From assembly GCA_036495095.1 (NCBI GenBank), contig DASXNK010000090.1, positions 1-33,208 of the forward strand: 33,208 nt of DNA. The letters run 5' to 3'. Positions 19,950-33,208 of this stretch are shown one piece after another. The translations under genes were made by a program, and so were the position numbers. Source of the DNA: Candidatus Dormiibacterota bacterium. GTDB lineage: Bacteria > Chloroflexota > Dormibacteria > Aeolococcales > Aeolococcaceae. How positions within the stretch are numbered: the first letter of the stretch is position 1; each line of letters starts with the position of its first letter. The notes below the pieces were generated by a model. It was not told where the DNA came from and did no database searches. It saw only the letters and a list, made by a program, of their open reading frames with translations.

Positions 19950-21008
19950 ATGAGTGAGGCCCGGCGTTCAGCCTTCGGCAGCCCCAGCATCGACGAGGTG
20001 CACATCCTCTGGCTCAGCGCCGGGCTGGGCTGCGACGGCGACTCGATCTCGCTGACCGCGGCCACCCAGCCGAGCCTCGAGGACATCGTCCTCGGCGCCA
20101 TCCCCGGCCTCCCCAGGGTCCACCTCCACCACCCCCTGCTCGCCTTCGAGGTCGGCGACGACTTCCTGCGCGACTGGCACCGGGCCGTGCGCGGCGAGCT
20201 CGACCCCTTCATCCTCGTGCTGGAGGGGTCGGTGCCCAACGAGGCGATCAACGCGGAGGGCTCCTGGGCGGCGTTCGGCACCGACGCCGAGACCGGCCAG
20301 CCGATCCCCACCTGCGACTGGATCGACCGGCTGGCGCCGCGCGCCTGGGCGGTGGTCACCGCCGGCACCTGCGCGGCCTACGGCGGCATCCATGCCATGG
20401 AGGGCAACCCCACCGGGGCGATGGGGCTCACCGACTACCTGGGCGCCGACTGGCGCTCGGCCTCGGGGATGCGGATCGTCAACGTGCCCGGCTGCCCGGT
20501 GAAGCCGGACAACTTCACCGAGACCCTGCTCAACCTGCTGATGCACATGGCCGGGCTCACCGCCGAGATGCCGCTCGACGAGCTCGGCCGGCCCCGGTGG
20601 CTCTTCGACGTCACCGCCCGCGACGGCTGCAACCGGGCCGGCTTCAACGAGCAGACCGACTTCGCCGCCAGCTACAACTCCGGCAAGTGCCTGGCCCGGC
20701 TGGGGTGCTGGGGACCGGTGGTCGACTGCAACGTCGGCAAGCGCGGCTGGATGTCGGGGATCGGCGGCTGCGCCAACGTCGGCGGCATCTGCATCGGCTG
20801 CACCATGCCGGGGTTCCCCGACCACTTCATGCCCTTCATGGACGCCCCGCTGAAGGGCCAGCTCACCGCCGACCTGCTCCGCCCCCACGGGGCGGCGGTC
20901 CGCACCCTGCGGGTGATCACCAACGCCGCGGTCAGGCTGGAGCCGGAGTGGCGCCGCCCCGGGCCGCGCCTGACGACCGGTTACGAGCCCGAACCGGCGC
21001 CGGGGTGA
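19950..21008 (+). CDS. hhyS: [NiFe]-hydrogenase small subunit, group 1h-like, without large subunit
   Basis: The protein resembles the Fe-S small subunit of the oxygen-tolerant, high-affinity 'actinobacterial' hydrogenase that oxidises atmospheric H2. It has 352 residues and no Tat signal, as expected for that group. The proximal cluster site reads GLGCDGDS (Cys28 with aspartates 29 and 31 instead of the usual second cysteine), then Cys141 (TAGTCAAYGGI) and Cys182 (VPGCPV). Further cluster cysteines are 227, 247, 253, 260, 274, 281 and 284. The 27 in-frame residues before ATG 19950 are not typical. The large-subunit gene, normally adjacent, is absent; the stop overlaps the GTG of a GGDEF-EAL gene. 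Confidence 0.87.
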   Translation: MSEARRSAFGSPSIDEVHILWLSAGLGCDGDSISLTAATQPSLEDIVLGAIPGLPRVHLHHPLLAFEVGDDFLRDWHRAVRGELDPFILVLEGSVPNEAINAEGSWAAFGTDAETGQPIPTCDWIDRLAPRAWAVVTAGTCAAYGGIHAMEGNPTGAMGLTDYLGADWRSASGMRIVNVPGCPVKPDNFTETLLNLLMHMAGLTAEMPLDELGRPRWLFDVTARDGCNRAGFNEQTDFAASYNSGKCLARLGCWGPVVDCNVGKRGWMSGIGGCANVGGICIGCTMPGFPDHFMPFMDAPLKGQLTADLLRPHGAAVRTLRVITNAAVRLEPEWRRPGPRLTTGYEPEPAPG

Positions 21009-23836
21009 GCGCCGGCGACCATCGCCTCGCCGCGGTGGCGACCGCGAGCGGGCAGGCGGTGGTCGGGATGGACGGCGCCGGCCGGATCACCGAGTGGGCC
21101 GGCCAGGCTGCGGCGATCTTCGGCTGGGAGCGCGACGAGGTCCTGGGGAGGTGCCTCGCCGACACCATCATCCCGGCCTTCTACCGCGCCGCCCATCGCC
21201 GCGGCCTGGAGCGCCACCGCGCCGGCGGGGCGTCGCCCCTGGTCGGCCGGCCGGTCGAGCTCCGGGCGGTGCGCCGGGACGGCAGCGAGTTCCCGGTGGA
21301 GATCCTGGTGGTCCCCGCAGAGCACGGCGGCGCTCTCGAGTTCACCGCGATGATCCGCGACATCACCGAGCGCAGGTGGCACGAGCGGCTGGCGGCGATG
21401 CAGCTCGCCGCCGGCCAGCTGCTGATGGACGGATCACGCCCCGGCCTGGCCGAGGCGATGCCCGAGGTGCTGCGCACCGTGGGGGAGGCGGTGCGCTGCC
21501 CGGTGGTGCTCACCTGGGTCCCAGACCCCGCCGGTGAGGGCCTCCGCCTGGAGCACGCCTGGCATGCGGGGGGCGCCGGCCTGGGGACCTTCTGCGAGCG
21601 CGCCGGCGGCGTTCCGCTGCCCCAGCCGGAGCTGGTCGACCGGATGCACTGGGGCGGCACGCCCTTCGTGGTGCACGCGGAGATGCCCCACCACAACCCC
21701 CTGCTCACCCTCGCCGGCGAGTTCGGGCTGCGCTGGATGGCGGTCTTCCCCATCGCCCACTCGGGCCCCCTGATGGGGCTGCTGGTGCTCCTCTCCGGCG
21801 AGATGCTCGGGCTCGACGAGGAGCTGCTGGGGGCGATGAGCGGCCTCGGCGGCCAGCTCGGCGCCGCCTTCGCACGCGCCGAGGCGGAGCGGACCCTGAC
21901 CGAGAGCGAGCGGCGGTTCCGGCTGCTCTTCGAGGGCAACCCCAACCCGATGTGGGTCGCCGACGTCGAGACCAGGGCGATCATCGCCGTCAACGACGCC
22001 GCGCTGGCCGCGTACGGGTACACCCGCGAGGAGTTCCTGGGCATGCGCGTCGACGACGTCGAGGTGTCGAGCCACGCCGGCACCGAGCCGGTGCGTCCCG
22101 CCACCAGCTGCCGGCACCGGCTCAAGGACGGGAGGGTCATCGACGTCGAGGTCACCGCCCGGCTCCAGGAGTTCTCGAGCCGGCCGGCGGTCCTCACCCT
22201 GGTCCACGACGTCACCGAGCGGGCGGCGCTGGAGCGCAACCTCTGGCACCAGGCCTTCCACGATCAGCTGACCGGCCTCGCCAACCGGGCGCTGTTCACC
22301 GACCGCCTCGAGCACGCGCTGCGCCGGGCGGCGCGCCACGGCTCCATCTGTGCGGTGCTGCTGCTCGACCTCGACGACTTCAAGCGGGTCAACGACACCC
22401 GCGGCCACCAGGTCGGCGACCGGCTGGTGCAGGCGGTGGCGGCGCGGCTGTGCGAGCACCTCCGCCCCGACGACTCGGTGGCGCGACTCGGCGGCGACGA
22501 GTTCGCGGTGCTCCTCGAGGACCTCGACGGCGCCGCCGGCGCCGAGATCGCCGCCGGGCGGGTGCTCGAGGCGCTGCAGCTGCCCTTCCACGTCGACGGC
22601 CGCGAGCTGCTGGTCGGCGCCAGCGTCGGGGTGGCCCTCAGCGCCGACGCCGCCGGCTCGGACGAGATCCTGCGCAGCGCCGATCTGGCCATGTACGTCG
22701 CCAAGTCGAGGGGGAAGGGCCGCCACCAGCGCTTCGAGCCGAGCATGCTCAGCGCCATGGTGGAGCAGGTCGCCCTGGAGCAGGAGATGCGCGGCGCGCT
22801 GCCCCGCGACGAGTTCGCGGTGCTGTACCAGCCCCAGCTGGACATCGCCACCGGGCGCATCACCGGCGCCGAGGCGCTGGTGCGCTGGAACCACCCGACC
22901 CGGGGATGGCTCGAGCCCCACGCCTTCATCCCCCAGGCCGAGGAGTCGCGGCTGATCGGCGCGCTCGGCGCCTGGGTGCTGCGCACCGCCTGCGGGACGG
23001 CGCGGCGCTGGGTCGAGCTGGGGCTGCCGGCGACACGGGTGGCGGTGAACATCTCGGGCCGCGAGCTGGAGAGCGAGGAGCTCACCCGTGGCATCCGGTG
23101 CGTGCTCGACGAGACCCGCCTCCCCGCCACCCACCTCGAGCTGGAGATCACCGAGACCGCGGCGGTGGGGCAGGAGGGCGAGACCCTGGCCCGCCTCGCC
23201 GAGCTGCGCGAACTCGGGGTGCGCATCGCCATCGACGACTTCGGCACCGGCTACTCGATGCTCAGCCGGCTGCAGGCCTTCCCCGTCGACCGCCTGAAGA
23301 TCGACCGGTCCTTCATCGAGACGATCGACCTCGCCACCGACACCGCGCCGCTGGTGGCGGCGATGATCGGCATGGCCCACGGGTTGGGGCTGACCGTGGT
23401 CGCCGAGGGGGTCGAGCTGACCGAGCAGCTCCAGTACCTGCGCGGCCACGGCTGCGACGAGGCCCAGGGATACCTGGTCGGCAGGCCGATGACCGGGGCC
23501 GCCCTCGAGGAGCTGCTGCGCCGCTCGGCGGCCGGTGCCAGCGCGGTGCGCTGGCAGGAGCCGGAGCTCGAGACCCGCCACCTGCTCAGCGAGCTGGTGC
23601 GGGTCGAGCCCGTGGCCGACCGCCTCGTCCCCGCCCTCCTCGGCGAGCTCGAGCGCCTGACCGGGGTGCGCTGCGACCTGCTCGACCGCACGCCCGGCCC
23701 CGCCGAGGCCCGGGTGCCGCTGCGGCTGCGCGACGGCCGCGTGCTGGGCTGGCTGGGGGGTGCCGCCGGCGCCGACGATCGCACCCTCGAGGTCATCCGG
23801 CTGTTCGGCCGGGTGATCGCCACCCAGCTCGGCTGA
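21005..23836 (+). CDS. PAS-GAF-PAS-GGDEF-EAL cyclic di-GMP cyclase/phosphodiesterase
   Basis: The 943-residue cytoplasmic protein has PAS 1 (about 5-125), a GAF-like domain (about 140-310), PAS 2 (about 315-415), GGDEF (about 420-580), EAL (about 595-840) and about 100 C-terminal residues of unknown type. The cyclase motif GGDEF (496-500) is intact and has a classical RxxD inhibitory site (487-490) five residues before it. The phosphodiesterase side is also intact: EAL (623-625), DDFGTGYS, KIDRSF and VAEGVE. It may therefore make or degrade cyclic di-GMP depending on input. The GTG overlaps the hydrogenase subunit stop (GTGA), indicating translational coupling. Confidence 0.93.
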   Translation: MSAGDHRLAAVATASGQAVVGMDGAGRITEWAGQAAAIFGWERDEVLGRCLADTIIPAFYRAAHRRGLERHRAGGASPLVGRPVELRAVRRDGSEFPVEILVVPAEHGGALEFTAMIRDITERRWHERLAAMQLAAGQLLMDGSRPGLAEAMPEVLRTVGEAVRCPVVLTWVPDPAGEGLRLEHAWHAGGAGLGTFCERAGGVPLPQPELVDRMHWGGTPFVVHAEMPHHNPLLTLAGEFGLRWMAVFPIAHSGPLMGLLVLLSGEMLGLDEELLGAMSGLGGQLGAAFARAEAERTLTESERRFRLLFEGNPNPMWVADVETRAIIAVNDAALAAYGYTREEFLGMRVDDVEVSSHAGTEPVRPATSCRHRLKDGRVIDVEVTARLQEFSSRPAVLTLVHDVTERAALERNLWHQAFHDQLTGLANRALFTDRLEHALRRAARHGSICAVLLLDLDDFKRVNDTRGHQVGDRLVQAVAARLCEHLRPDDSVARLGGDEFAVLLEDLDGAAGAEIAAGRVLEALQLPFHVDGRELLVGASVGVALSADAAGSDEILRSADLAMYVAKSRGKGRHQRFEPSMLSAMVEQVALEQEMRGALPRDEFAVLYQPQLDIATGRITGAEALVRWNHPTRGWLEPHAFIPQAEESRLIGALGAWVLRTACGTARRWVELGLPATRVAVNISGRELESEELTRGIRCVLDETRLPATHLELEITETAAVGQEGETLARLAELRELGVRIAIDDFGTGYSMLSRLQAFPVDRLKIDRSFIETIDLATDTAPLVAAMIGMAHGLGLTVVAEGVELTEQLQYLRGHGCDEAQGYLVGRPMTGAALEELLRRSAAGASAVRWQEPELETRHLLSELVRVEPVADRLVPALLGELERLTGVRCDLLDRTPGPAEARVPLRLRDGRVLGWLGGAAGADDRTLEVIRLFGRVIATQLG

Positions 23837-23894: not shown

Positions 23895-23913
23895 CCGGGC
23901 GCCTAGCGCCCGG
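23895..23913 (-). terminator. hairpin containing the stop codon of the Ser-Asp repeat gene
   Basis: CCGGGCGC-CTA-GCGCCCGG is an 8-bp perfect stem whose 3-base loop is the TAG stop codon of the minus-strand gene. It could aid termination or protect the mRNA end. Confidence 0.35.
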
Positions 23914-24544
23914 TGGTGCGCCGGAGCCGGCGGCCGGCGCCGAGCGCGCCGACCCCGAGGCCGGTGAGCAGAAGGCCGGCGCCCAGCGGAAGCTCGGTCC
24001 CGGTCTTCGGCGTGGCCACCGCCTTGGTGGCGGCGGGGGTGTTCGACGCGGTGGTCCCGGCGACGCCGCTGCCGGGCACGGGGAGGGACACCGGGACCGG
24101 TGCGACCGGGCAGGTGATGGCGGCGGCGTTCTTCACGCTGCTGTCGTCAGCCTTGTCGCTGCTGTCCTCGGAGTCCTTGTCGCTGTCCTCGGAGTCCTTG
24201 TCCGAGTCTCCGGAGTCCTTGTCGGAGTCCTTGTCCGAGTCCTTGTCCGAGCCCTTGCCGGAGGAGCTCTTCCCGGTGCCGCAGGCGACCGGGGCGGGCA
24301 CCGGCTTGGCGATCGGCGCGACCGCCTTCGGCGTCGGCGTGGCCTTGGCCGTCGGCGTCGCCTTCGCGGCCGCGGTCGGCTTCGGCGTCGTCGTGGCCTT
24401 GGGTGCGGTCACCTTCGGCGTCGGCGTCGGTGTCGAGGCCGCGAGGGCGTTCGACACCCCCGCCCCTGCGAACAGCATCGCGAGTCCCGCCGTGGCCGCC
24501 GCGGCGAGGCCGCGGGCGAGCTTGGAGAGACGCATCCCTTCCAT
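23903..24544 (-). CDS. Ser-Asp repeat surface protein with sortase-like C-terminal signal
   Basis: The 213-residue protein has an N-terminal export signal (hydrophobic stretch about 12-35, cleavage near NALA-AS). A Thr/Pro/Lys/Ala-rich stalk (37-85) follows, then a Lys-Asp-Ser/Glu-Asp-Ser repeat (about 95-135), two cysteines (88 and 144), and a second linker. The C terminus is built like a cell-wall sorting signal: TPKTG (an LPxTG variant), a hydrophobic helix (GAGLLLTGLGVGALGAG) and a basic tail RRLRRTTGR. It is probably anchored at the surface; no sortase lies in this window. ATG 24544 follows GGGAGGGG; ATG 24535 is an alternative. No function can be assigned. Confidence 0.75.
   Translation of the reverse strand: MEGMRLSKLARGLAAAATAGLAMLFAGAGVSNALAASTPTPTPKVTAPKATTTPKPTAAAKATPTAKATPTPKAVAPIAKPVPAPVACGTGKSSSGKGSDKDSDKDSDKDSGDSDKDSEDSDKDSEDSSDKADDSSVKNAAAITCPVAPVPVSLPVPGSGVAGTTASNTPAATKAVATPKTGTELPLGAGLLLTGLGVGALGAGRRLRRTTGR
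24161..24256 (-). repeat. tandem repeats encoding Asp-Lys-Asp-Ser units
   Basis: Two perfect 21-bp copies (24161-24181 and 24182-24202) encode DKDSEDS twice, followed by about three near-identical 12-bp units encoding DKDS. The repeats keep the reading frame and resemble staphylococcal Sdr-type repeats in composition. Copy number could vary between strains. Confidence 0.8.
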
Positions 24545-29082: not shown

Positions 29083-29556
29083 ATGTTCGACGAGATCACC
29101 CGGCCTCCACTGCTGCGCACGCTCGTCGCCACCACGCGTCTGACCGATCGCCAGCGGATCATCCGCATCCTCGACCGTGCCGGCGGCTACGACGTCATCG
29201 CCGAGACCGGCGACGGCCGCAGCGCGGTGCGGCTCTCCGGCCAGATCGAGCCCGACCTGGTGCTGCTCGACCTCGACCTGCCCGAGCTGGGCGGCATCGA
29301 CGCCACCCCCGCGATCCTCCACAAGGCGCCGGGGGCGACGATCGTGATCCTCACCCCGCGGGGTGAGGACTCCGGCGGTGTGCTCGCGGTGCGCTTCGGC
29401 GCCCGCGCTCACGTGCCGCTGGACAGCCTCCCGGAGATCCTCCTCGCCGCCCTCGAGGCGGCGCTGCCGCGCGAGGTCGCGGGCCGCCAGGCGGCCACCG
29501 GCGCGCCCGGCACCGCACCGCCCTCGTGGTGGGAGGCGCTGCTCGCCGACCGCTAG
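29083..29556 (+). CDS. receiver-domain protein with atypical active site
   Basis: The 157-residue protein is a single response-regulator receiver fold with a short Ala/Pro-rich tail and no output domain. The phosphoacceptor Asp63 is present (LVLLDLDLPELGG). However, the acidic pair that binds magnesium is replaced by threonines (LVATTRLTD, 17-18), and the conserved lysine near residue 111-115 is absent (HVPLDS). Phosphorylation is therefore doubtful, and it may work by protein binding. The C terminus ends with SWWEALLADR. The partner kinase is unknown and none is encoded nearby. Confidence 0.82.
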   Translation: MFDEITRPPLLRTLVATTRLTDRQRIIRILDRAGGYDVIAETGDGRSAVRLSGQIEPDLVLLDLDLPELGGIDATPAILHKAPGATIVILTPRGEDSGGVLAVRFGARAHVPLDSLPEILLAALEAALPREVAGRQAATGAPGTAPPSWWEALLADR

Positions 29557-29559
29557 AGG

Positions 29560-29895
29560 TCAGCGGGCCCCGGGCAGGCAGGGCGAGGCGGACCCGCGGC
29601 CCGCCGGGATGGTGCAGCCGGCGGCGCCCGACGAGACCAGGCCGGGGCCGCCCTGGGCCGCGGAGACGGCGAGGGCGGTGAGCAGGAGGCACACCGCCGC
29701 CACCAGGACCATCACCGTGCCCTCGGCCGACCACGGCCGCCGGTGCAGCCGCGACCAGAGGGTGGGGCGATGGGGTCGGTGCGGGCTCCGCGCCTCCCGC
29801 CGCGCCTCCACGCGACGGAGCAGGCCCGGCGAGCTCCAGGCGCGGCCGGTGGCGGGGTCGGGGATCTCCGAGGACGGGATGGGCACTGTGGTCAT
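29560..29895 (-). CDS. small single-pass membrane protein, unknown
   Basis: The 111-residue protein has a basic, Arg/His/Pro-rich N-terminal half (about 1-58), one hydrophobic segment (VMVLVAAVCLLLTALAVSAA, 61-80) and a short external tail with two cysteines (94 and 106). ATG 29895 follows GGAG at a normal distance. It lies 74 bases downstream of the riboswitch-preceded gene on the same strand, with no strong terminator between, so it may share that transcript. No family is recognised. Confidence 0.65.
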   Translation of the reverse strand: MTTVPIPSSEIPDPATGRAWSSPGLLRRVEARREARSPHRPHRPTLWSRLHRRPWSAEGTVMVLVAAVCLLLTALAVSAAQGGPGLVSSGAAGCTIPAGRGSASPCLPGAR

Positions 29896-29969
29896 GGTGG
29901 GCTCCAGGGGGCGGGGACGGCCGCCCCAGCGACCGTCCCCGCCACTGCGGAGAGAGAGGGAGACGTGGG

Positions 29970-30278
29970 TCAGGCGGTGGCGGGCGCCGCGCTCCGGACG
30001 GCGGGGCGGGCGACCGAGCGCCGGCTCACCCGGGCGTGCTCGTCGAGCGCTCCGCCGATGACGCCGCGCCACGCCTCCCAGGTGGCGAGCACCTGGTGGG
30101 ACCGGACCACCACCGGGGTCCACTCGTCGCCGCCGGGGCGGCGCATGGCGAGGACGATGTCCGGGCGCCGGCCACCACCGGCGGGACCGACGACGATCGC
30201 CGGGACGGCACGTCCCGGCACGGCACCACGGGCGGCGACGAGCGCGCCCGGGTGGCGATGCCACGCTGGCTGGGCCAT
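29970..30278 (-). CDS. small unknown protein under a cyclic di-GMP riboswitch
   Basis: The 102-residue soluble protein is rich in Ala, Arg, Val and Pro and has no signal or clear membrane segment. A core of short strands (PAIVVG, PDIVLAMRR, WTPVVVRS) followed by a helix (HQVLATWEAWRGVIGGALDEHARV) suggests a small alpha/beta domain; I do not recognise it. ATG 30278 has AGGAG about 9 bases upstream. The leader contains a cyclic di-GMP-I riboswitch, so its expression should follow the second messenger. A start far upstream in the same frame would overlap the riboswitch and is rejected. Confidence 0.65.
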   Translation of the reverse strand: MAQPAWHRHPGALVAARGAVPGRAVPAIVVGPAGGGRRPDIVLAMRRPGGDEWTPVVVRSHQVLATWEAWRGVIGGALDEHARVSRRSVARPAVRSAAPATA

Positions 30279-30296
30279 AGGGAGAATCTCCTCTCG
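30279..30296 (-). promoter_or_regulatory. possible Shine-Dalgarno-sequestering hairpin
   Basis: On the minus strand the ribosome-binding site reads AGGAGATTCTCCCT just before the ATG. GGAG can pair with the adjacent CTCC around a 3-base loop, offering a simple translational switch downstream of the riboswitch. The stem is only 4 bp. Confidence 0.35.
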
Positions 30297-30307
30297 GCCC
30301 CTCCGCT

Positions 30308-30391
30308 CCTTCGGCAGCCCGGCTATCTCAGAGAGACCCGTGGCTTTGCGTCCCCGCCTCGCGACGGGTTTGCCAGTTTGTCGGGAGCCGA
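30308..30391 (-). promoter_or_regulatory. cyclic di-GMP-I (GEMM-I) riboswitch aptamer
   Basis: On the minus strand the element contains, in order, GGCAAACC (30374-30367), a six-pair stem closed by a GCGA (GNRA) tetraloop, GGGACGCAAAGCC ending near 30342, GGGTCTC-loop-GAGAT, and GATAGCCGGGCTGCCG. These are the conserved blocks of the GEMM-I class, including the tetraloop and the GGACGCAAAGCC receptor side. UCGGC (30391-30387) can also pair with GCCGA (30315-30311) to close the element. TACGCT at 30405-30400 may be the -10 element. It precedes the 102-residue unknown gene; the ligand assignment comes from the family. Confidence 0.9.
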
Positions 30392-30517
30392 CCCCGGCAG
30401 CGTAGCCGCCCGCGGATCGCATCGCCGCGCGGTGCCGGTCACAGACGGGTGGCGGTCCCGCCGCCGGGTCCCCGTGATATACAGGGCGGCGCTCGAGACG
30501 TGGCATGGAGGACGAGG

Positions 30518-31687
30518 GTGGCAGCCGCCGTCGGCATCCCCCGGGAGACCGGGGACGGGGAGAAGCGCGTCGCCACCGTGCCCGCGGTGGTGCCGATCCT
30601 GACCAAGCTCGGGCTCGAGGTGGTGGTCGAGTCCGGGGCGGGCGAGGCCGCCGGCTTCCTCGACGAGGCCTACACGGCAAAGGGCGCGCGCATCGCCGAC
30701 CGCGCCGAGGTGCTGCGCTCCGGGGTGGTCGCCGCCGTCGACGCCGCGGCGCTGGCGGACGAGCAGCCGGGCCCGCCCGCGGGCACCGTGCTGATCGGCT
30801 TCTGCAACCCGCTCTCCGGCTCCGCGGCGGTGCGCACCCTCGCGGAGCGCGGGCTGGTCACCCTCTCCATGGAGCTGATGCCACGGATCACCCGCGCCCA
30901 GAGCATGGACGCGCTCTCCTCGCAGGCCAACCTCGCCGGCTACAAGGCGGTGCTGGTCGCCGCGGGGATGCTGCCGAAGATCTTCCCGATGCTCACCACC
31001 GCGGCGGGGACGATCGCCCCCGCCCGGGTGCTGGTCGTCGGCGCCGGCGTCGCTGGCCTCCAGGCGATCGCCACCGCCCGCCGCCTCGGCTCCGTGGTCG
31101 AGGCCTACGACGTCCGCCCCGCGGTGAAGGAGCAGGTGGAGAGCCTGGGGGCGAAGTTCGTCGAGCTGGCCGTGGAGGAGACCGCCGCGGAGGATGCGGG
31201 CGGCTACGCCAAGGCCCAGGACGAGACCTTCTACCGCCGCCAGCAGGAGCTCATGGCCAAGGTGGTGGCGGGCAGCGACGTGGTGATCACCACCGCCCTG
31301 GTGCCCGGCCGGAAGGCCCCGGTGCTGGTCACCGCGGCGATGGTGGAGGGGATGGCGCCGGGATCGGTGATCGTCGACCTCGCCGCCGAACAGGGCGGCA
31401 ACTGCGAGCTCACCGAGGCCGGGAGGACGGTTGTCGTGCACGGTGTCTCGGTGGTGGGGGCCGTCAACCTGCCGGCGACGGTGCCCCAGCACGCCAGCCA
31501 GATGTACGCGAAGAACGTGTCCACCTTCCTCCAGCACCTGGTCAAGGACGGTGAGGTGCGGCTGGACACCGACGACCAGATCACCCGCGAGACGCTGGTG
31601 ACCCGGGACGGACGGGTGGTGAACCCGCGGGTCTGCGAGGCCCTCGGCATCGAGGCGCCCGCGGCGGACGCCACGCCGGCGGGGTAG
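30518..31687 (+). CDS. pntAa: NAD(P) transhydrogenase subunit alpha part 1 (PntAa), orphan
   Basis: The family forms the NAD(H)-binding subunit of the proton-translocating transhydrogenase. From GTG 30518 the protein has 389 residues: VGIPRETGDGEKRVATVP at the start, QANLAGYKAV, the Rossmann motif VGAGVAGLQAIATARRLG, GGYAKAQDETFYRRQQELM and ALVPGRKAPVLV. It ends after the soluble domain, as in split-subunit systems. The partners pntAb (membrane) and pntB are absent downstream. GGAGG lies about 6 bases before GTG; TATACA near 30478-30483 may be the -10 element. A lone enzyme of the related alanine dehydrogenase family is less likely given the transhydrogenase-type motifs. Confidence 0.9.
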   Translation: MAAAVGIPRETGDGEKRVATVPAVVPILTKLGLEVVVESGAGEAAGFLDEAYTAKGARIADRAEVLRSGVVAAVDAAALADEQPGPPAGTVLIGFCNPLSGSAAVRTLAERGLVTLSMELMPRITRAQSMDALSSQANLAGYKAVLVAAGMLPKIFPMLTTAAGTIAPARVLVVGAGVAGLQAIATARRLGSVVEAYDVRPAVKEQVESLGAKFVELAVEETAAEDAGGYAKAQDETFYRRQQELMAKVVAGSDVVITTALVPGRKAPVLVTAAMVEGMAPGSVIVDLAAEQGGNCELTEAGRTVVVHGVSVVGAVNLPATVPQHASQMYAKNVSTFLQHLVKDGEVRLDTDDQITRETLVTRDGRVVNPRVCEALGIEAPAADATPAG

Positions 31688-32334: not shown

Positions 32335-33208
32335 TCAAGCCGCTGTCTCGACCAGGGTCGGCCAGGCGACGTCTTCGGAGTAGAGGGTCCGGTGAGTCAG
32401 GCATCCGTGGAGGATGCCGACGAAGCGGTTGGCGAGGGCTCGGAGTGCCTGGTGGTGGGTGTTGCCGCGCTGTCGGTGAAGGTCGTAGAAGCGTCGGGCG
32501 CCTGGGGAGCGGGTCAGCGACGAGAACGCCCAGAGGTAGAGCGGGTCCGCGAGCCTTCGGTTGCGGGCCACGCGTGCCAGAACGACCAACCTGGTCCCTG
32601 ATGCCCTGGTGATCGGCGCCATGCCTGCGTAGCAGCGTCTCGCCCTGGCATCCTGGTAGCGGGTTCGGTCGTCGCCGAACTCGCCCAGGACCCGGGCGCC
32701 GAGGACCACACCTAGTCCGGGCAGACTGCGAAGGATCTCGGCGTCCGGGTGTATCTCAAAAGCCTCGGCCAGCTCCGCCTCGAGCGTGGCGATTTCAGCG
32801 TTGAGCTGGGCAAGGATCCGCACGGTCGCCCGCACGGTCTTGGCGTACGCTCGGGCCAGTTCCAGGGGCGGGTGGAGCTGCGGCGAGCGCAGCGCCTCCT
32901 GGATCTCGGCGGCGCGGGTATCGAGGTTGCGCTGACGTCCGGCACGCTCCAGGGTGGCCCGGACCCTGCTGAGCGACAGCGTCTTGCCCTCCGCCGGTGT
33001 CGGAGCGCGTTCGAGCAGGGCCACGGCGTCCCTGCCGGCAAGGTCGGTTCCGAAGGCCTCGAGGGCTGCCGGATAGAACTCGCGCAGCGTGCTGCGGAGT
33101 TGGTTGACCGAGCGCTGCCGGCTCCAGATCAATGTCTGGTGAGCCCGAGCGAGGATCTTGATCACCTCGGCGAGCTCGCTGTCCCCAGCCACCGGCCGGT
33201 GGTTGTGG
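32335..33208 (-). mobile_element. IS110-family transposase, partial (cut by window edge)
   Basis: About 290 residues are visible, with no stop codon up to the window edge; the in-frame GTG at 33192 is internal. The visible part has the central helical region (HQTLIWSRQRSVNQLRS) and the C-terminal transposase_20 domain (LRSLPGLGVVLGARVLGEF, then YAGMAPITRASG). The N-terminal DEDD RuvC-like catalytic domain must lie beyond 33208. IS110 elements usually lack terminal inverted repeats, and none is obvious between 32309 and 32334. Members use a bridge RNA from the element's non-coding end, which is not clearly visible here. Confidence 0.92.

Follow-up and report, generated by a model that had tools for sequence, protein, structure and literature searches.

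We found that a small locus in a 33,208-nt stretch of DNA from an uncultured soil bacterium of Candidatus Dormiibacterota (the window) carries a full-length riboswitch aptamer of the cyclic di-GMP (c-di-GMP)-I-GGC type directly ahead of a gene for a 102-residue protein, P0001. The locus is probably a fragment detached from a Tad/surface regulon under c-di-GMP control, with P0001 probably regulated at translation.

An Rfam 15 cmscan of the whole window placed the aptamer at 30309-30383 on the minus strand. There, RF03167 (c-di-GMP-I-GGC) aligned over its full length, model positions 1 to 80 (70.6 bits against a gathering score of 59 bits, E value = 5.5e-15), and the canonical GEMM-I model RF01051 scored 68.6 bits at the same site (cut-off, 35 bits). 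The GGC type was reportedly first described by Weinberg in 2017. A search with RF03167 gave no match in 14 control genomes, and the conserved core of the c-di-GMP-I class was recognisable in the window aptamer. The initial annotation had proposed a GEMM-I aptamer here and named the Rfam covariance model as a check; with matches over the cut-off for both models, that claim was borne out. Judged by its sequence, the element is a genuine RNA switch of the c-di-GMP-sensing kind, with ligand binding predicted. The window also holds a match to the Rfam sRNA Ms_AS-4 (63.8 bits; 32644-32725, plus strand), antisense within an IS110-type transposase gene (32335-33207, minus strand; Pfam Transposase_20, E value = 4.9e-13), and this RNA family may reflect transposase coding sequence.

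The aptamer lies 5' of P0001 (29970-30278, minus strand) on the same strand, 30 nt separating its end from the P0001 ATG. After a gap of 74 bases from the P0001 stop comes P0002 (29560-29895, minus strand), which encodes 111 residues with one membrane segment as read from the sequence. The two frames and the gap are as initially annotated, and relatives of both ORFs in other genomes keep the reading frame. The annotators had also seen no likeness to a known family in either protein, and we agree, having found no match over the cut-off for P0001 or P0002: P0001 matched no family in Pfam, NCBIfam, or PHROGs, and P0002 and its two relatives had no Pfam family above the cut-off, including the TadE/TadG and Flp domains. 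The downstream neighbour is a convergent response-regulator receiver gene (29083-29556), and the upstream neighbour is a divergent alanine dehydrogenase/PNT-type gene (30518-31687). Farther away, at 19950-23836 on the plus strand, an NiFe-hydrogenase small-subunit gene (Pfam NiFe_hyd_SSU_C, E value = 4.9e-18) is followed directly by a PAS/GAF-GGDEF-EAL gene, whose product could be a maker or degrader of c-di-GMP; its presence in the window is in keeping with c-di-GMP control of the locus.

The window aptamer is one of seven RF03167 matches in its genome, G000, all of them above the cut-off. Four of them lie ahead of sortase-like genes; the other three stand before a TadE-TadE-TadG operon (Pfam TadE and Tad above the cut-off), before a sigma-70 region 4 gene, and before P0001 in the window locus. 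Two genomes of the same genus had six matches each, of which one of the 12 fell under the cut-off; the genes downstream include sortase-like, TadE, response-regulator (one over the Pfam cut-off and one just below), and subtilase genes, along with some of unclear type, and one contig stops after the aptamer. Across the phylum, 61 of 301 genomes had a match at an E value of 0.001 and 49 had one over the cut-off. Nine genomes of another family of the phylum, f8 (G005, G018, G080, G112, G160, G224, G248, G255, and G297), carry tandem aptamers, with at least two c-di-GMP-I-GGC matches within about 200 bases.

The four sortase-like genes showed weak similarity to Pfam Sortase PF04203 (E values, 2.4e-5 to 0.018), all under the cut-off (best, 24.5 against 26.6 bits at E value = 2.4e-5), and seven of the eight aligned members matched at an E value of 0.1 or better. 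H154, C213, and R222, which we take to be the sortase active-site residues, were invariant in all eight aligned proteins. The predicted model, at a pLDDT of 38, did not confirm the fold, and the sole hit of a profile search against the PDB was irrelevant (E value = 0.21). An aptamer was present at five and absent at five of the 10 sortase-like loci with names, the five bearers seemingly being loci already seen, which leaves no new cases; since sortase-like genes without an aptamer exist, the family is not tied to the switch. A Ser-Asp-rich protein encoded in the window (23903-24544, minus strand) has a TPKTG-like motif, a hydrophobic stretch, and terminal Arg residues as read from the sequence, making it a possible sortase substrate; it had no Pfam match, and its NCBIfam matches were far under the cut-off (best E value, 2.1e-5). 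The sigma-type gene (C32, L037:917-1307) encodes an 84-aa Sigma70_r4 protein (E value = 3.2e-15) with region 4 only, and an in-frame ATG was read 37 nt 3' of its aptamer. A riboswitch on such a sigma-like fragment could extend the regulon.

Next, we looked into how the leaders are related, using 23 of the 24 extracted leaders; G254, which has a different platform, was left out, and five leaders whose start codon was uncertain were trimmed to a fixed length. Compared with the 22 others, the P0001 leader was 95% identical to its counterpart in the same-genus genome G305, 92% identical to the TadE-operon leader of its own genome, 84% identical to the G305 Tad leader, and at most 80% identical to the remaining 19. 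The 92% identity extends over the ribosome site and the first codons. In the leader tree, the Tad and P0001 leaders formed a clade (support, 0.959), within which the two G000 leaders paired (support, 0.751). Nearly one control cassette therefore stands before the Tad genes and P0001. Moreover, as the P0001 leader is close to a copy of the TadE-TadE-TadG leader, P0001 is expected to be expressed under the same c-di-GMP conditions, and the presence of near-identical cassettes at P0001 and on a pilus-type operon suggests that the P0001 locus is part of a surface-attachment programme. The locus is like Tad/Flp pilus loci (TadE PF07811, Tad PF13400) in this common leader and in having P0002 relatives that lie in or beside such loci, and it differs from them in that P0001 and P0002 are both without a Tad domain.

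We then examined the leader for signs of a promoter and of a switching mechanism. Upstream of the aptamer is a -10-like hexamer, TACGCT (30399-30404, minus strand), from which transcription would start near 30392. It is an instance of a yAnnnT pattern that stood 6 to 7 nt 5' of a GTCGG-like element in 19 of the 21 leaders bearing the element (23 examined), against 21 of 577 background GTCGG sites in the G000 sequence, its own seven leaders included. Because the pattern was picked after the leaders had been viewed, and because the leaders are related, it is only suggestive of a promoter of their own. A sigma-70 scan found no promoter at the window locus. In the 16 leaders measured among the 24 extracted, the start codon came 27 to 40 nt after the aptamer, and no terminator-like site was found in 29500-30560, where shuffled sequences also gave about none. 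Control of translation is likely because the platform between aptamer and start is short and without a terminator. The more diverged aptamer of G254 (L047:621-709) is followed by a hairpin and a T run as read from the sequence, a terminator-type platform unlike that of the window genus.

The window leader has three further elements: GUCGGC (30387-30392, minus strand), at the putative mRNA 5' end, which pairing computation makes a candidate partner of a segment downstream of the aptamer; GGGCCGA (30294-30300, minus strand), within the 5' arm of a hairpin predicted by folding over the start region; and GGAG (30288-30291, minus strand), the probable ribosome-binding site, 13 nt before the ATG. 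In 18 of 22 leaders, the GTCGG-like element can form a helix of at least six pairs with the segment that precedes the ribosome site; in this GC-rich sequence, random 31-base stretches pair equally well in a proportion of 0.30 on average (22 leaders), and of 0.16 for the window leader. An ON model in which the leader's 5' end pairs before the ribosome site, kept as a candidate, was tested by permutation on 23 leaders (G306_C140, where the contig ends, was left out); its matched pairs did no better than permuted pairs, as 815 of 5,000 permutations were as good and the mean z score against shuffles was -0.7. When this helix was imposed on the 16 leaders whose start codon was clear, the penalty was 0 to 11 kcal/mol and the start codon was not released consistently. 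The start codon was enclosed in 12 of 17 leaders (G215 added) and in 68 of 86 control genes, that is, not more often in leaders. Start-region folds were, on the other hand, stronger in the 17 leaders than in the controls (-17.6 versus -14.5 kcal/mol, P value = 0.003).

P0001 itself has few relatives. In a search of 110 genomes of the class, two had a match, G000 and G305, and the G305 protein is 58 to 59% identical, has the same neighbours, and lies 28 nt behind an aptamer identical at 75 of 75 bases. The third genome of the genus (G306, 68% complete) had no convincing match to P0001 or P0002, and a search of 400 genomes of the phylum, into which G305 was evidently not drawn, gave no further convincing match to P0001. 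Candidates for distant relatives were set aside: within the class, a two-sequence profile matched 33 of 110 genomes at an E value of at most 0.1, the best beyond G000 and G305 being 2.9e-4 and several having internal stops, and within the phylum, the six of 400 genomes that matched at an E value of 0.001 were G000 and five partial matches (8e-5 to 4.5e-4), which we treated as chance. Of these partial matches, the one examined in detail apparently lies within a small frame that runs antisense to another of 615 aa, and gene surroundings were viewed for the G327 match and for a second weak match in G000. A scan of genome contigs for P0001 returned none and was insensitive, as G305 was seemingly included yet not returned. 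An AlphaFold model from two sequences had a mean pLDDT of 56, and Foldseek against the PDB gave 115 matches at an E value of at most 10 and none at 0.001, so we assign no fold.

P0001 might be a by-product, a frame of little function behind a copied Tad leader. The near identity of the two leaders would fit this reading, as would a P0001 codon score of 0.32 per codon, compared with about 0.6 to 0.7 in the neighbouring genes, and an unconserved tail, in which the differences from G305 number 10, 10, and 6 at codon positions 1, 2, and 3. Over the first 82 codons, however, the differences number 21, 13, and 34, mostly at third positions (dN = 0.26, dS = 0.62; dN/dS about 0.42), while the full set of 100 aligned codons gives dN = 0.35 and dS = 0.56 (dN/dS, 0.63); furthermore, the frame has no frame-breaking indel even at 58 to 59% protein identity. 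The first 82 codons thus look to be under selection as a protein, and we consider the by-product reading quite improbable. We give still less credence to the possibility that the aptamer is specific for another cyclic dinucleotide, such as 3',3'-cGAMP, as some GEMM-I variants are. RF03167 is a separate variant family, and yet RF01051 scores the window aptamer almost as well; moreover, by our placement, the base equivalent to Vc2 position 20 remains a G. G20 of Vc2 contacts the ligand according to PMC4744006, and c-di-GMP-I variants with altered specificity are known from PMC7266159.

A third alternative, implied by the initial annotation, is a two-gene output module, with P0001 and P0002 forming one operon under joint control of the riboswitch and their products acting together. 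In its favour, the two genes lie on one strand with a short gap, a GGAG precedes the P0002 ATG, and both P0002-family genes known in the genus sit downstream of a c-di-GMP-I-GGC aptamer. P0002 has two clear relatives, in G305 and G045. The G305 relative closes an operon that runs aptamer-TadE-TadE-TadG, and its GTG overlaps with the stop codon of the third gene. The TadE genes of this operon are above the Pfam cut-off, and the third gene, where it is open, shares 41% identity with the G000 TadG. The frame of this TadG-type gene (L058:5029-6600, minus strand) is broken in its first part by stops, either an assembly fault or a real break. The G045 relative lies in convergent orientation next to a TadG gene that exceeds the Pfam cut-off and, against the module, has no aptamer within the 12 kb examined. 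A P0002-family gene thus lies in or adjoining TadE/TadG genes in two of the three genomes (G305 and G045) and not in the window's own.

The syntenic P0001 locus of G305 weighs further against a module, as it consists of P0001, a 15-bp hairpin, and then the convergent gene, with P0002 missing. P0002 either arrived behind P0001 in G000 or was lost there in G305. The same GC-rich 15-bp hairpin stands between the two genes in the window (29910-29943, minus strand), found by sequence comparison and folding and taken as a putative terminator-like or boundary element without a T run; a 70-nt stretch over it folds at -41.5 kcal/mol (z score, -3.1) in the window and at -38.8 kcal/mol (z score, -2.8) in G305. 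It was absent from the terminator scan results and is not a repeat family, with one exact site in the genome and four at three mismatches, against two for the reversed pattern. A run of CTCTCTCTCC lies 5' of it at 29949-29958 (minus strand) and is found in G305 too. Because P0002 is absent at the syntenic locus and a conserved hairpin separates the genes, riboswitch control of P0002 is less sure, and we regard the two-gene module as unlikely. The initial interpretation is partly supported. P0001 adjoins the aptamer in both known copies, and the surface-response reading agrees with what else the aptamers precede in this genome, namely TadE/TadG and sortase-like genes. Weakened is the claim that the aptamer controls two proteins: the proposed comparison of orthologous loci placed both clear P0002 relatives within or next to Tad loci, and only the G305 one has an aptamer. 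With P0002 missing in the syntenic locus and Tad linked elsewhere, these are therefore two genes of a wider regulon, with unequal certainty, and not one conserved module.

We also evaluated other identities and relatives for P0002. An anti-sigma identity was not supported (NF052375, E value = 0.0081, 16.2 against 100 bits; no Pfam anti-sigma match). A weak profile match in G159 (E value = 0.0017), the only weak match examined, proved to be an RskA-type anti-sigma gene whose neighbour was named by reading as a sigma gene. Additional relatives were not accepted: matches at an E value of 0.01 occurred in 15 of 110 genomes with a two-sequence profile and in 12 of 110 with a three-sequence profile, and once the three clear genes are set apart, the lowest E values were 6.4e-5 with the first profile (second sites in G045) and 5.3e-5 with the other (with stops).

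Taken as a detached piece of the Tad/surface regulon, the locus would work as follows. Transcription probably starts just 5' of the aptamer, at the recurring -10-like hexamer, and ligand binding probably changes access to the start codon 30 nt past the aptamer, giving translational control from a short, terminator-less platform. P0001, whose leader is so similar to that of the TadE-TadE-TadG operon, would be co-regulated with it. The roles of P0001 and P0002 are read from association: P0001 would be a small protein restricted to its lineage that most likely serves the surface/pilus programme, whose control it shares, as an accessory or regulatory factor, and P0002 would be a small Tad-locus membrane protein, co-expressed with P0001 only if transcription passes the intervening hairpin.

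Known c-di-GMP systems offer partial parallels. The window aptamer resembles c-di-GMP-I (RF01051) and c-di-GMP-I-GGC (RF03167) riboswitches in exceeding both cut-offs, in its 5' leader position, and in having surface-type genes among the neighbours; it differs in that its target, P0001, falls in no family found, and binding and switching here are predicted. In Clostridioides difficile, too, there are many riboswitches per genome, some before sortase-dependent surface-protein and type IV pili genes; according to PMC6200980, class II aptamers switch those genes on, and class I aptamers reportedly act as off switches, with one gene increased, whereas here a class I variant in another phylum precedes sortase-like and TadE/TadG genes. 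Vibrio cholerae Vc1, a class I aptamer ahead of the surface-attachment gene gbpA, is reported to act positively (PMC4744006); the window target is unrelated to gbpA.

The riboswitch class is thus already known, while P0001 and P0002 appear to be undescribed, and the titles and opening lines of abstracts examined on c-di-GMP-I-GGC, on c-di-GMP-I riboswitches in general, on c-di-GMP riboswitches with Tad pili, Chloroflexi, or sortase, on GEMM with TadE, and on Dormibacter with c-di-GMP gave no account of this regulon. A bolder reading, which we put forward only tentatively and which may well not hold, is that P0001 founds a new family of small c-di-GMP-controlled factors through which, in these Chloroflexota, the second messenger is coupled to the Tad pilus, as a satellite pilus module assembling around one riboswitch cassette; it comes to mind because a copy of the pilus-operon leader precedes P0001 and a Tad membrane protein, P0002, lies beside it. 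In a lineage represented by metagenome bins, the genes probably under direct control of a known signal include those for TadE/TadG, sortase-like proteins, a sigma-like protein, and one orphan protein, and the shared leader predicts that P0001 and the Tad operon respond jointly to c-di-GMP.
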